A stretch of DNA of 64,000 bases, taken from positions 4,526,001-4,590,000 of the forward strand of contig NZ_AP025739.1 of assembly GCF_003574315.2 (NCBI RefSeq), in the 5' to 3' direction. The notes beneath the pieces are model-generated. The model was given only the letters and a program-made list of their open reading frames with translations. It was not told the origin of the DNA and did not search any database. Below are positions 6,208 to 19,113 of the stretch, piece by piece (position 1 is the stretch's first letter; each line of letters opens with the position of its first letter). The DNA is from Capsulimonas corticalis (GTDB lineage Bacteria > Armatimonadota > Armatimonadia > Armatimonadales > Capsulimonadaceae). Position numbers and translations under genes: made by a program.

Positions 6208-8649
6208 ATGAAGCAACTCCAGCGCCTCTTTTTCACCCTTTGCGTGCTCCTGTGCGTGACGTCCATCGCGACGGCGCAGACCGCCGCCAACTCGGATTCC
6301 TCACAGATCGTGCTGCGCGTCGGCGGCGCCGGCGGCTTCAAGCTTCCGGGTAAGAACGATATCGCGCCGCGCTACCGGGCGGACCGCGCGATTGTCGAGA
6401 CCTTCGAGCGGGAGAATCCAGGCATCCGTCTGGAGAGCGCGCAGGGCATCCAGATCGCGGGGCCGGCGGCGGAATCGGGGCTGATGCTCCAGTTCGCGGG
6501 AGGCACCGCGCCGGATGTCGTGTATGTCAACTTCCGGGAGTCGGCGACGTATATTCAGCAGGGATTTTTGGAGCCGCTCGACGGCTATCTCAAGCAGGAT
6601 CCCGATGTCTATGGGCGTCTGAGTCCGGTGATCAAGAAGGTCATCAAGGATGTCGGCGACGGCCACGTTTACTTTATCCCTTACGCGCAGTTTGTGCAGG
6701 CGCTTTACTATCGCCGGGACCTGTTTCAGGCGGCGGGGCTGGACCCGGACCGGCCGCCGCAGACCTGGGATGAGTTTTACGATTACGCGAAAAAACTGAC
6801 AAACCAACCCAAGGGCGTTTGGGGATTTGAGTACGGCACCGATCCCGATGCGACGGCGTACTGGTGGATCAATTTCTTGTGGCAGGCCGGCGGCGAAGTC
6901 GTGCGCCGTAACGCCAAGGGACAGTGGGAGGCGGCGTTCGACACGCCCGCCGGCGTGAGCGCTCTGGAGTTCCATAAGAAGCTGATGACCGGCCCGTGGG
7001 TCGGTCCCGACGGCAAGCGCTATGTCGGCGTGGCGCGTCACAGCAGCACGATGGCGGAGGATCGGGTCAAAGGCGCGGTCGCGATGTGGTTTCAGTACCA
7101 GAGCAATATCATCGCGAACACCGCCGATACGAACTCGCTCAACCCCAGTCTGATCGGCATCGCGCCGATGCCGAAGGGACCGACCGGGATCAGCGCCAAT
7201 GAGATCAACGCGGCGAGCTGGGGCATCTCCTCGCAGATCAAAGACCCGCGCGTGCGTGACGCCGCGTGGAAGTTCGTGAAGTTTATGGCGTCCGACGACG
7301 CCGATCGGATCCGCACGAAAGCGTATGTCGAGGCGGGATTGGCGAACACCGTCAATCCGCAGTCGCTGATCAAGTATGGCTACGCCGATGACGCCGCCGG
7401 CGTGTCCAAAGCCTGGCTTCAGGCCAGCAAGACACTGTTCGAAGACGGCCGGCCCGAGCCGTACGGCGCGAATATGAGCCAGGTGTACGTGTTGCTGGGA
7501 CAGCCGCTGCAAAAGATCGAACTGGATCCGGGAAAAGACGCGCACGCGCTGCTGACCGTCGCGGCCAGCGAGGTCAATACGAAGCTGACGGGGTATGTCG
7601 ATCCCAAAGAGATGCAGCGCCGCCGGACCGGCGCGGCGGTCGTCTTCTGGATCCTCATGCTCGCGTTCTTTGGCGTCCTGGTGTGGCAGGGCAAGCTGGC
7701 TTGGAAGGCGTATCTCGCCGCGCGTCCGACGGAAACCGAGGCCAGAACGCCGCGCCCGTTCAACCTGCGCCCGCACATCATCGCGCTGCTGTTCGTCGCG
7801 CCCGCCGCGCTCTCCGTGCTGCTCTGGAAGTACTATCCGCTGGTGCGCGGCCTGGTGATCGCCTTTCAGAATTACCAGCTGCTCGCCCCGCCGCGTTTCG
7901 TCGGTCTCGATAACTTCATCGACTGCTTCTATCAGCCGTCGTTCTGGGCCGGGATCCGTGTTTCGATCCTCTTCACGCTTTACAACCTGATCTTCGGTTT
8001 CTTCCTGCCGATCTTCATCGCCCTGGCGCTTTCGGAGATCCCGCGCGGGAAGATGCTGTTCCGGACGATCTACTATCTCCCAGCGGTCGTCAACGGCTTC
8101 GTCGTGCTGTATCTTTGGAAATGGTTCGAGGACAGCACCCCGCAGGGCTTGTTCAACACCATTATCTCCTTCGTGACCATGGGCGCCAAAGGCCCTTACG
8201 ACTGGCTCGGCACGCCCGCGCTCGCTCTCTTCGCGGCCACGCTCCCCGGGATCTGGACGACCGCCGGCCCCGGCAGCATCATCTACCTCGCCGCCCTCAA
8301 AGGCGTACCGGATGAGATGTACGAAGCCGCCGACCTCGACGGCGCGTCGGTCATGACCAAGGTCTGGAAGATCACTCTTCCCACACTGCGTCCGCTGATC
8401 ATGATCACATTTCTGGGCGCCGCCATCGCCTCGTTCCAAGCCTCGGAAACAATGCTCGTCATGACCGGCGGCGGCCCGCTCTACGCCACGCACTCGCTCG
8501 GTCTGGAGATCTGGTACAACGCGTTTATGTACCTGAAGTTCGGCTACGCGACAGCCGCCGCGTGGATTATGGGGATGATGCTGGTTGGGTTTACGGTTTT
8601 CCAGCTGAGGATTATCAAGAACCTGAAGTTTGCGACGACGAAGGCGTAG
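6208..8649 (+). CDS. ABC sugar transporter: solute-binding protein fused to MalF/UgpA-type permease
   Basis: 813 residues if it starts at ATG 6208, chosen because a signal peptide begins there (MKQLQRLFFTLCVLLCV, cleavage near IATAQ); an upstream GTG at 6166 would bury it. Residues about 25-460 form a family-1 extracellular solute-binding protein (APDVVYVNF, PQTWDEFYDYAKKL, PMPKGPTG). A transmembrane segment near 475-495 follows, then a permease of the MalF/UgpA class from about 525 on, with six predicted helices and the ATPase-coupling EAA loop (MYEAADLDGASVMTKVWKITLP, starting near residue 710). Import of a sugar or glycoside is likely. The second permease (MalG type) and the ATPase (MalK type) are not adjacent. 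Binding protein and permease are normally separate polypeptides, so the fusion is notable; the reading frame is continuous. Confidence 0.88.
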   Translation: MKQLQRLFFTLCVLLCVTSIATAQTAANSDSSQIVLRVGGAGGFKLPGKNDIAPRYRADRAIVETFERENPGIRLESAQGIQIAGPAAESGLMLQFAGGTAPDVVYVNFRESATYIQQGFLEPLDGYLKQDPDVYGRLSPVIKKVIKDVGDGHVYFIPYAQFVQALYYRRDLFQAAGLDPDRPPQTWDEFYDYAKKLTNQPKGVWGFEYGTDPDATAYWWINFLWQAGGEVVRRNAKGQWEAAFDTPAGVSALEFHKKLMTGPWVGPDGKRYVGVARHSSTMAEDRVKGAVAMWFQYQSNIIANTADTNSLNPSLIGIAPMPKGPTGISANEINAASWGISSQIKDPRVRDAAWKFVKFMASDDADRIRTKAYVEAGLANTVNPQSLIKYGYADDAAGVSKAWLQASKTLFEDGRPEPYGANMSQVYVLLGQPLQKIELDPGKDAHALLTVAASEVNTKLTGYVDPKEMQRRRTGAAVVFWILMLAFFGVLVWQGKLAWKAYLAARPTETEARTPRPFNLRPHIIALLFVAPAALSVLLWKYYPLVRGLVIAFQNYQLLAPPRFVGLDNFIDCFYQPSFWAGIRVSILFTLYNLIFGFFLPIFIALALSEIPRGKMLFRTIYYLPAVVNGFVVLYLWKWFEDSTPQGLFNTIISFVTMGAKGPYDWLGTPALALFAATLPGIWTTAGPGSIIYLAALKGVPDEMYEAADLDGASVMTKVWKITLPTLRPLIMITFLGAAIASFQASETMLVMTGGGPLYATHSLGLEIWYNAFMYLKFGYATAAAWIMGMMLVGFTVFQLRIIKNLKFATTKA

Positions 8650-8819
8650 GGGAGGCCTCACCCGGCCCTTCGGGCCACCCTCTCCCAAAGGTCTGGGCGA
8701 GGGTTAAGAGTTGGATCAAAGATCCAAAAGATCTTAACTTAAAACTCTGACTCCCCGGCTCTCCCAATTTTGGGAGAGCCGGGGACCCGCTTGCGGGTGG
8801 AGGGGGGTGAGGGCCATCC
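8650..8819. repeat. Palindromic intergenic element with strong hairpin
   Basis: 170 bp with no gene. The ends are imperfect inverted copies (GGCCTCACCC...CTCTCCCA against TGGGAGAG...GGGTGAGGGCC). At its centre-right is a 15-bp hairpin (8753-8784) that could also stop transcription of the transporter gene. The shape is that of dispersed REP/MITE-like repeats. No coding potential is seen. Confidence 0.55.
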
Positions 8820-15321: not shown

Positions 15322-18300
15322 ATGTCCTCGCGCAAAAAACGCCTCGCGATCGCTTATTCCTCCTCGATCCTGCTGAACGGCGCGTTCTGGCTGTTCTACA
15401 GCCATGAGCTTCGTTCCAGCAACGCGCATCCGGCCGTCAGCAATGAGGCGATCGAGCGGATGAAACCGATGACTGTCGGCCTGTTCAAGCCGCTGCCGCC
15501 GCTGCCCGCGCCGCATCCGGCGGCGCCGAAACCAGGCGCCGGCCAGCGGCCTTCGGGCGCGGCGGGTGAAACGCAGGCGCTTCGTCAGGCGGAAGCGAAG
15601 CAGGACGCGGCGGCTCGTGTTCTCGCGCGGAAGCAGTCGGAAGCCGCCGCCGCTCAGTCGCGGGCCGCTGGTTCGGCGGGGCAGGCCAAGGCGAGCGAGC
15701 GCGCCGCCTTGGAGGCGGCCGCTAACGTCCAATCCGCGCATCAGTTTGTGCAGCAAGCGGAGGCGAAGCTCAGCGCATCGCGGGGCGCTCTGGCCGACGC
15801 CCGTGCGGCGCTGGACCAGGCGAAGCCCGACGAGCGGGCCGCACAGGCGGCGGCGGCGCAAGCGGCGGCCAAACAAGCGGCGCAGGACGCCGCACAGGCT
15901 CAGTCCGCGAATGAAGTGCTGGCGTACGCGCAGGCTTCCGCCGACGCCGCAGTCAAGATGGCGGCCTCCCGTGCGGCCGCCGCTCAGGCGGCTCAAACCA
16001 AAGCGGCGGCCCTGGAAGCGGCGGCGGTCGAGGCGCGGAGCCGTCTCAGCGCCCAGTCGGCCGCCGTACAGCAGCTTCGCCAGCAAAGCGCCGCCCTGTT
16101 AGCCACTCTTCCAGCTTCAGACTCCGACTCGGAGACCAACTCCGAGAATGACGAATCCGCAGCCCCGGACCGAGCCTCCACAGACCCTCAGAAAAAAGAA
16201 AAGCCGCAGTCCGATATCGTCCTCCAGCGCATCCAGATGTGGAGCCCCAAAGCGGGGCAGAAGTTCAACCTGGCGACGAACTTGAACATCACGTTCCCCA
16301 AGGATATGCAGGTCACGCCCGGGCCGCCGCTGACGGAAGACCAGCTGGCGCAGATCCAGGAGCTTATGCGCCATCAGCATTTGCATCAGGTCAAGATGGA
16401 CCGCAAACAAGTGCGGAAACTGGCCGACATGCGCCGCAAAACCACAAGCAAGCCCAAGCCGACGGGCAAGCCGGGAAGCGATGACGAGCGGCGCCGTATG
16501 GCGAAGCGCCCGGCGCCGCGTCCGCCGATCCATAAAACGGTCAAGCCGCAAGGCGAGCAAGCCTCTAATCTTCCACGTCCGCGCTCGCCATTTGTCGTCC
16601 GGACATGGGATACGGACATGTACAACCGCTGGGCGCCGCGTCCGGGTGAAGATAAGAATATCTCCGACACGCAAGCGCCTGCCTCGCAGACGCCAGCGCC
16701 GCAAACGCCCGGCAGTCCGCAGGACGGCGCCGGGACTTCGGCTGCCACAGCGCCCACTCAGATGGCGGCAAACGCGCCCGGCGCTCTCAGCGGCAACGCC
16801 GCAGGAGCGCAAGGGGCCGGAACCGGGCAAGACAACGGCTCCGACGCCGGTCAGGCTGGCGGTGCGTCGGGTGGTCAGGCTGGCGGTGCGTCGGGTGGTC
16901 AGGCTGGCGGTGCGTCGGGTGGTCAGGCTGGCGGTGCGTCGGGTGGTCAGGCTGGCGGTGCGTCGGGTGGTCAGGCTGGCGGTGCGTCGGGTGGTCAGGC
17001 TGGCGGTGCGTCGGGTGGTCAGGCTGGCGGTGCGTCGGGTGGTCAGGCTGGCGGTGCGTCGGGTGGTCAGGCTGGCGGTGCGTCGGGTGGTCAGGCTGGC
17101 GGTGCGTCGGGTGGTCAGGCTGGCGGTGCGTCGGGTGGTCAGGCTGGCGGTGCGTCGGGTGGTCAGGCTGGCGGTGCGTCGGGTGGTCAGGCTGGCGGTG
17201 CGTCGGGTGGTCAGGCTGGCGGTGCGTCGGGTGGTCAGGGGCAAGAAAATGGAGCCGGCAAGGGAACCGATGCCGGCCCTCAAGGCGCAGGCCAAGGCGC
17301 AGGCCAAGGCGCAGGCCAAGGCGCAGGCCAAGGCGCAGGCCAAGGCGCAGGCCAAGGCGCAGGCCAAGGCGCAGGCCAAGGCGCAGGCCAAGGCGCAGGC
17401 CAAGGCGCAGGCCAAGGCGCAGGCCAAGGCGCAGGCCAAGGCGCAGGCCAAGGCGCAGGCCAAGGCGCAGGCCAAGGCGCAGGCCAAGGCGCAGGCCAAG
17501 GCGCAGGCCAAGGCGCAGGCCAAGGCGCAGGCCAAGGCGCAGGCCAAGGCGCAGGCCAAGGCGCAGGCCAAGGCGCAGGCCAAGGCGCAGGCCAAGGCGC
17601 AGGCCAAGGCGCAGGCCAAGGCGCAGGCCAAGGCGCAGGCCAAGGCGCAGGCCAAGGCGCAGGCCAAGGCGCAGGCCAAGGCGCAGGCCAAGGCGCAGGC
17701 CAAGGCGCAGGCCAAGGCGCAGGCCAAGGCGCAGGCCAAGGCAGTGGCGGCGGTAACGGAGCGGGCGCGGCCAGCGGAACCGGGACGGGAGCTGGAGAGG
17801 GCGGCGCGGAGGGCAATGGCGGAGGAGGCGAGGGGAGCGGGCAGGGCGGCGGTCAGGGCGGCGCCTTTGAGGCGCTCCAGTCCGAAGGCGGCGATGGGAT
17901 TGGTGAAGGCGGGGGCAGCGGCGGCGGTGACAATGGGATGGGGGATCAAGGGCGAGACGACGGCGTGGAGCATGGCGACAGCCAGGTGGCGGAGCAGGCC
18001 GACTTGCCGCCGGACGCTCCGATCGTCGGTCATACCGTTCCCGGCGCGCTGGTGCTTCCTCCCGCGCCCCCCGTGGGAGTCAGCAAAGGCCAAGACCCCA
18101 CTCCGCGTAAAGTCAAAAGCACGGTCGTGAGCCCGCCGGGGGGCAAAACCGCGCGCGCGGTCCGCCGGCCGGAAGAGCGGACCGCGCCGCTCACGCCCGC
18201 CTCACAATCGCCGAAGCCGCAGAAGATGGTCAAGGAGCCCGTGGGCCAGCCCGACAAGACGGGTCTCAAGCCTATCCCTTTGGCGCTGACAATCGGCTCC

Positions 18301-19113
18301 GCCAGCTCGGCGGGGCAGATCCCCATGACCGTCATGGCGCGCCCGCATCTGCCGCAGGGAATACCGGGAGATGTGATCGATCCGCCGCAGCCGCCCGCGA
18401 AGGGCGTTCCCAAGTCGCCTTCGCTGCTGCCGGCGCACAAGGCGGTTCCGCCGGAAAAAACGGCGTCGGCGGCAAAGCCCATTCACCCCGAAAAGACGCA
18501 GCCCGTGAAGAGGGAGACTCCGCGTCCGGCGGTCGTGCATCTGGCCCGGAACAGTCAGGGAATTCGAAACGGCGCCCTTCAGCCTCTGCCGGCGACGCCC
18601 ATGCCCGACAGCAATACGCTTGTCGGCGACGGCTCCGGCCTGAAGGGCGAGTACTATGAGGGGCGCTCCTTTGACACGCTCGCATTCACTCGGGCCGATC
18701 CCAACGTGGCGTATCGCTGGGTGACGACGCCCACGCACTCGCCGGGACCAAAGATTCAGGCGTATACCGACTATACGATCCGCTGGACCGGACGCATCGT
18801 CGCGCGACAATCCGAGACGTATACGTTCTATGCGGCCGCGGACGATGGAGTGCGCATCTGGATCAATCACAAACTGGTGATCGACGAGTGGTCGGCCAAC
18901 AGTTTGACGCAGTTCTCCAATAAGTTTACATTCCGGGCCGGCGAGCAATATCTGTTCAAGTGCGAATATCTGGAAGTGGACGGCGGCGATGCGGCGGTGT
19001 TTCTATACTGGTCCAGCCCGCACACCCCAAAGCAATACGTGCCGGAAGATGCATTCTTCTATCCGCTGCCCGACGATGAGGAAGAGCTGAAACTGGACAA
19101 GGCGTCCTATTGA
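15322..19113 (+). CDS. Giant TonB-like anchored protein with Gly-rich tandem repeats and C-terminal PA14 domain
   Basis: 1263 residues. The parts in order are: a short basic N-terminus and one transmembrane segment (8-26) in which S15-ILL-N19-GA aligns with the TonB SxxxH-GA signature, His replaced by Asn; a Pro-rich stretch ([14 protein letters not shown]); an Ala/Gln/Lys-rich coiled coil of about 190 residues; a basic linker; 16 identical octapeptides GQAGGASG (510-637); 38 identical QGAG tetrapeptides (654-805); a Gly-rich then Pro-rich region; and a PA14 domain from about 1105 ([33 protein letters not shown]). There is no TonB C-terminal domain. PA14 domains often bind glycans. It follows two exbB and two exbD genes, so it is probably the tether moved by that motor; this is inference. 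Confidence 0.85.
16849..17232 (+). repeat. 16 perfect tandem copies of a 24-bp repeat
   Basis: Sixteen identical copies of a 24-base unit beginning GGTCAGGCTGGC and encoding GQAGGASG, followed by 6 bases of a seventeenth. No base differs between copies, so the array was expanded or homogenised recently and copy number probably varies between strains. Confidence 0.98.
17281..17736 (+). repeat. 38 perfect tandem copies of a 12-bp repeat
   Basis: Thirty-eight identical copies of CAAGGCGCAGGC, encoding QGAG, ending in one degenerate copy at 17737-17748. The unit is a multiple of three, so changes in copy number keep the frame. The assembled copy number may not be exact. Confidence 0.98.

Follow-up and report, generated by a model that had tools for sequence, protein, structure and literature searches.

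Capsulimonas corticalis probably possesses a CUT1 importer with a tethered receptor, in which a binding domain fused to MalF works together with an unlinked, repeat-carrying MalG and a shared MalK/UgpC ATPase. The fused gene lies in the window (the whole 64,000-nucleotide stretch of DNA that was analysed), where it occupies 6208-8649 (+) as a single stop-free frame of 813 codons with an ATG start. The earlier note on this DNA had read in it a signal peptide, a family-1 binding domain, a membrane helix and a MalF/UgpA permease with its EAA loop, and the open reading frame, Pfam, the structural model and the homologue alignment all agree on that arrangement. The position proposed for the join, near 7620, is also correct: near base 7587 (residue ~460) the binding domain comes to an end, and from about 7603 the tether helix follows.

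Components of the probable importer

The features of the fused gene are:

6208..8649, + strand: fused binding protein and MalF-type permease gene (open reading frame, Pfam, homologue alignment)
6208..6276, + strand: signal peptide, residues 1-23 (hydropathy scan; helix 2-23 in the AlphaFold2 model)
6307..7587, + strand: sugar-binding domain of SBP_bac_1 fold, residues 34-460 (Pfam, model, PDB matches)
7603..7719, + strand: tether helix, residues 466-504, with a hydrophobic core at 474-492 (hydropathy scan, model)
7720..7767, + strand: basic linker, residues 505-520 (pLDDT dip in the model)
7768..8619, + strand: MalF/UgpA-type permease domain, residues 521-804 (Pfam, NCBIfam, PDB sequence comparison, hydropathy scan, model)
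8320..8382, + strand: EAA loop, residues 705-725 (invariant alignment columns)

Pfam places SBP_bac_1 at residues 56-365 (E 1e-39) and BPD_transp_1 at 599-798 (E 1e-9) of one chain, and the NCBIfam matches are to a UgpA/GlcT-like permease and a UgpB-like binding protein, every score lying below the equivalog cut-off. The AlphaFold2 model, for which 28 homologues served as input (mean pLDDT 82, pTM 0.77), comprises a signal helix (2-23), the binding domain (~34-460), a long helix (466-504), a low-confidence linker (505-520) and the permease helices (521-804). Judged by eye, cleavage of the signal peptide would fall near ATA/QT. The top Foldseek matches of the model are CUT1 sugar-binding proteins, led by 5ci5, 6dtr/6dtq and 1eu8, and these neighbours of the binding domain bind various sugars. 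Sequence comparison with the PDB returns binding proteins, SugA, AlgM1 and MalF. Since the tether is a single helix, the binding domain would lie outside and the first permease helix would start inside, which is the usual UgpA/SugA topology; the linker is presumably cytoplasmic. Residues 705-725, the EAA loop, are expected to contact the ATPase. The opposite strand also holds an open frame, of 795 codons (6301-8688, -), which has no match in Pfam and is most likely a by-product of base composition.

The window's genome stretch contains no BPD_transp_1 domain besides that of the fused gene, and no MalG adjoins it. This apparent lack of a partner was resolved by a genome-wide search, in which nine other CUT1 sites, among the matches found, each have both a MalF and a MalG; at two of the nine (L057, L058) the MalF is likewise fused to a binding protein. 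Only the window fusion (a MalF) and one MalG, 0.85 Mb from it, are left unpaired in the genome:

G000:C1:3684470-3686311 (= L056:4471-6312): unpaired MalG of 614 aa (genome-wide search)

In 11 fetched loci (L042, L043, L045, L049, L053, L071, L080, L081, L084, L085, and L086) the homologue of this unpaired MalG directly adjoins the fused gene. On these two grounds, orphan status and linkage in relatives, the unlinked repeat-MalG is a well-supported candidate for the partner of the window fusion. The fused gene has no adjoining MalG in loci L067-L070 and L073-L078, from the family and order to which the window belongs, and the MalG is located elsewhere in the same genomes; this unlinked arrangement counts against the pairing as far as co-expression is concerned.

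A search of the genome with PF17912 (OB_MalK) yielded one protein, L066:5206-6360, which belongs to the UgpC subfamily of ATPases (469 bits against a curated cut-off of 432) and is not beside the fusion; the count of one assumes that PF17912 finds all CUT1 ATPases of the genome. This single MalK/UgpC-type ATPase probably powers the fusion/MalG pair. Both a MalG-type partner and an ATPase had been expected elsewhere in the genome by the earlier note, and both are found there. In some other bacteria, according to a passage in PMC11212667, a single ATPase drives several CUT1 systems.

The system has a sugar-binding SBP_bac_1 domain whose nearest solved folds are CUT1, two different EAA-loop permeases of the MalF and MalG types, and a MalK/UgpC-type ATPase that the window pair would use. 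In the textbook CUT1 system, an importer of sugars or glycerol phosphates, the binding protein is a separate gene product (PMC11212667), whereas here it is fused in one frame, making the system a variant of the class and not a textbook member.

Neighbouring genes say little of the substrate. In relatives they range from alpha-L-rhamnosidase-like and alpha-L-fucosidase genes (L042:5014-7755 (-), L045:5076-7901 (-), and L086:4988-6394 (-)) to unrelated ones, and the former offer a weak hint of what is transported. The divergent gene beside the window fusion is, as read from its sequence, presumably hisF. Further along the window, a frame of 1263 aa (15322-19113, +) has a PA14 domain at its C-terminus and extended runs of GGQAGGAS and GQGA repeats; the genes ahead of it resemble ExbB/TolQ and ExbD.

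The repeat-built insertion of the MalG

The MalG carries an insertion of ~350 residues, located after the first membrane helix and before the conserved core and second helix, and probably facing the periplasm. Across 24 aligned MalG rows its length varies from 293 to 523 residues and its mean identity is 33%, against 67% for the core; in family f14 (L122, L131) the insertion is shorter and diverged. The model of the protein (pLDDT 80.2 overall, mostly 80-93 in the insertion) displays a pattern of helix, short strand, helix, helix that recurs about every 65-70 residues, and the insertion consists of about five such tandem helical repeats. The five units were cut by the helices of the model and one profile was built per unit; each profile matches other units in the 24 rows, with best E-values down to 1.6e-12. 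When the whole MalG model was submitted to Foldseek and VIA-align, only permeases were among the matches listed.

Pfam detects a Glyco_hydro_42 fragment in 20 of the 24 rows and a Glyco_hydro_14 fragment in four. The GH42 match spans profile positions ~149-213 of 376 in the four proteins with positions (153-211 in the row from the genome itself). A two-unit profile compared with the PDB matches GH42 beta-galactosidases at E 1.6e-6, over about 30-37 residues, and in 1kwg the match is at 155-183. In the numbering of A4 beta-galactosidase, the catalytic glutamates of 1kwg flank this stretch and neither lies inside it; the MalG array, built of helical repeats, does not contain a GH42 TIM barrel with both catalytic residues. 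Because the match is short and excludes the catalytic glutamates, the insertion is probably not an enzyme, but an array of a helical motif that GH42 enzymes also use.

The resemblance of the units to a stretch of sugar-handling GH42 and, more weakly, GH14 enzymes could nevertheless mean that the array itself binds glycan, as a lectin-like arm or an aid to processivity, instead of holding the binding domain. We regard this as unlikely, though it is the most serious of the alternatives: the matched stretch includes neither catalytic residue (in the numbering of A4 beta-galactosidase), and the likeness, which covers only about 30-37 residues, may go no further than a helical motif present in both.

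Conservation, spread and origins of the fusion

The chain runs colinear through the join in 28 aligned homologues from independent assemblies, including L047, whose permease end is truncated. Averaged over pairs of the 28, identity is 45% in the binding domain, 22% in the tether helix, 12% in the linker and 58% in the permease. Net positive charge follows the tether in all 28, and in 27 of these the tether itself is hydrophobic (19-residue mean >1.5). Since the helix stays hydrophobic in spite of its low identity, it appears to be under selection for its nature and not for its letters. The EAA-loop residues Y705, E706, A707, D711, G712, A713, and P725 are invariant.

A linker as variable as this is what a cleavable stretch might look like, and an in-frame ATG (7612) stands just before the tether helix. 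The chain could accordingly be cut in the periplasm, or the permease could also be made from the internal start, leaving a free binding protein as in ordinary CUT1 systems. This is improbable, because the internal methionine is absent from some rows of the alignment and release of the binding domain would leave the conserved tether helix without a function. It is more improbable still that the fusion/MalG pair serves as a sensor or regulator with little transport: the genes are unlinked in their own genome, where no substrate operon is apparent, but conservation in both proteins is highest in the EAA loop and the permease core (58% and 67% mean identity), which is what a pump coupled to an ATPase should show. 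An artefact, in which a missed stop codon, a frameshift or a mis-assembly fused two adjacent genes, is ruled out for practical purposes, for although rhizobial plasmids often have binding protein and permease as neighbours that tblastn reads as one place, so that a merged frame would arise easily, the join is open in the 28 homologues, full-length fused frames recur across a sample of 251 genomes, and of the 37 rows of the lineage in the tree described below, those that are not fused all stop at the end of a locus or contig.

A MAG of Capsulimonas sp. (L052) and the same-genus genome G001 both match residues 646-813 at 95%, which places the host probably among the Capsulimonas relatives of the Armatimonadota; the host genome is a single contig of 7.65 Mb. 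Neither relatives with separate genes nor a frameshift near 7620 were found in the window lineage, and the gene is a true fusion, as had been claimed. The same architecture was sought in relatives and proved to be common in the phylum.

Among 251 Armatimonadota genomes, 123 have both the fusion and the repeat-MalG, 11 the fusion only, three the MalG only and 114 neither, at thresholds of 1e-90 and 1e-60 that also admit a second class of fusion; neither the counts nor Fisher's p computed from them takes account of kinship, so that this p is no true probability. In a set of 41 relatives, 24 have both the fusion family and the repeat-MalG and G014 has the MalG alone, and the fusion calls there agree with those of the 251-genome search. 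The discordant genomes are G199, G202, G229, G260, G272, G284, G294, G296, G305, G312, and G323 (fusion only) and G014, G280, and G282 (MalG only), and eight of these 14 were examined. In five (G199, G202, G260, G272, and G284) the permease scores of 173-202 bits are comparable to those of the second fusion class, and the stretches fetched from these genomes yielded no MalG insertion. The frame of G229 ends at a contig end, and in G282 the end of a fused gene lies at a contig end, beside its MalG. For G014 (87% complete) the contig around its MalG was fetched, and a search of the genome found no fused gene.

The family extends beyond the phylum. One of the loci with adjoining genes (L049) comes from a Planctomycetota MAG according to its record, and in a Planctomycetota sample the fusion profile matches 23 of 119 genomes at 1e-50. 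Six of these (G041, G042, G050, G074, G101, and G158) read as the window lineage (>=370 bits), and the loci fetched for them (L107-L112) contain insertion-bearing MalG frames in every case. G023 (C9, C32), G041 (C53, C130), and G050 (C90, C24) each have the fusion twice, suggesting different substrates.

In a tree of 57 MalF domains, in which L058 and L010 are one gene entered twice, the 37 rows of the window lineage group together with good support. Fusion is seen in all but two of them, L112, which stops at the end of its contig, and L101, which stops at the end of the locus. The remaining fusions (L057/L002, L058/L010, L033, and L115) fall among unfused MalF. At least three changes of the fused/unfused label are required by well-supported branches, in a scoring that includes both cut rows, and this may be read from the tree as at least two separate fusion events. 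A plasmid search gave 2423 records, all below 60% identity, and for most of the 25 listed the match covers two separately named features. In such records the gene for the binding protein is commonly followed by that for MalF, an order from which fusions can readily arise.

The genome itself contains two further binding-protein/MalF fusions, L057:5965-8595 (-) and L058:4114-6672 (+), both of the second lineage. Their frames, of 877 and 853 aa, share the domain order of the window gene (binding domain, tether helix, MalF). Each has an ordinary MalG directly adjoining (325 and 427 aa, respectively), whereas the window fusion has none, and among the loci examined the repeat-MalG accompanies the window lineage only. 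Extra residues inside the permease were observed in several proteins. Two members of the fusion family (L084:441-3548 and L085:7280-10309) have ~80-160 of them near the position of window-protein residues 655-670, and an unfused MalF of 577 aa from the same genome, L065:5851-7581 (-), has ~165, possibly a P2-like loop.

Proposed working cycle and relation to known transporters

In the proposed cycle, the sugar-binding domain would be held to the MalF half by the one membrane helix, in the predicted topology, with one binding domain per MalF-MalG pair. It would catch an oligosaccharide or related solute, close, and then, with no diffusion step, dock on the transporter to which it is joined. Guiding or clamping of the tethered domain may fall to the MalG arch, as it does to the MalF P2 loop in E. 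coli, and ATP hydrolysis would then move the solute inwards. That tethering alters transport kinetics and stoichiometry, as the earlier note proposed, can reasonably be expected.

The same note had held the fusion to be exceptional for CUT1. This does not stand, given a published precedent, the two other CUT1 fusions in the genome itself and the frequency of the fusion in the phylum. A MalE-MalF fusion importer of maltose/maltodextrin with a single binding domain was reportedly described by Licht et al. in 2019 (Res Microbiol 170:1-12). The fold-match list includes 6ffl, the Bdellovibrio bacteriovorus binding domain, a PDB entry that we take to belong to that fusion. As far as the title tells, the fusion of Licht et al. 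has one family-1 domain N-terminal to MalF, and the window gene has the same; the title and a citing sentence, on which the comparison is based, mention no repeat-built MalG. By that citing sentence, MalE fused to MalF is transport-competent (PMC7756565; the title is also cited in PMC9045158). A fused receptor in CUT1 is a known kind, and the fusion alone is already in print.

GlnPQ and OpuA, importers of glutamine and glycine betaine respectively, also have a binding domain covalently tethered to the membrane part, but belong to another transporter class, not CUT1, and OpuA has two binding domains per complex where the window system would have one. In GlnPQ there are more than two. The MalFGK2-MalE system of E. 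coli shares with the window system the MalF, MalG and MalK parts and the CUT1 fold, but its MalE is separate and not fused. Its docking aid is the MalF P2 loop. The window MalF, unlike that of E. coli, has no P2 loop, and it is the MalG that carries a large array.

The repeat-built MalG loop appears to be undescribed. Literature on CUT1 fusions and Armatimonadota transporters, in a search that covered few subscription journals, contained nothing on the repeat-MalG or its pairing, and no CUT1 fusion is mentioned in the available parts of a thermophile review, a transporter review and the Fimbriimonas genome paper. Tentatively, and with rather more doubt than confidence, the two features can be combined into a distinct CUT1 class of Armatimonadota and some Planctomycetota, defined by a MalF-tethered receptor and a MalG with a tandem-repeat periplasmic arch built from a motif shared with GH42. 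The arch would cage or dock the receptor in place of the MalF P2 loop, and the two changes would have arisen jointly in evolution, as parts of one device for receptor delivery.

The textbook picture of a CUT1 importer has four separate proteins, with the binding protein free or lipid-anchored. A tethered version that is spread through a whole lineage and has one receptor per pump would make it possible to test cleanly what an excess of receptor and its diffusion contribute to uptake. The repeat-built MalG loop would be a second means of managing receptor docking, and one apparently not yet described. For annotation the system carries a warning, as one gene may hold both binding protein and permease while the partner gene lies far away in the genome. 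The tethered receptor is an established idea; here it extends across much of a phylum, in company with a variant MalG.
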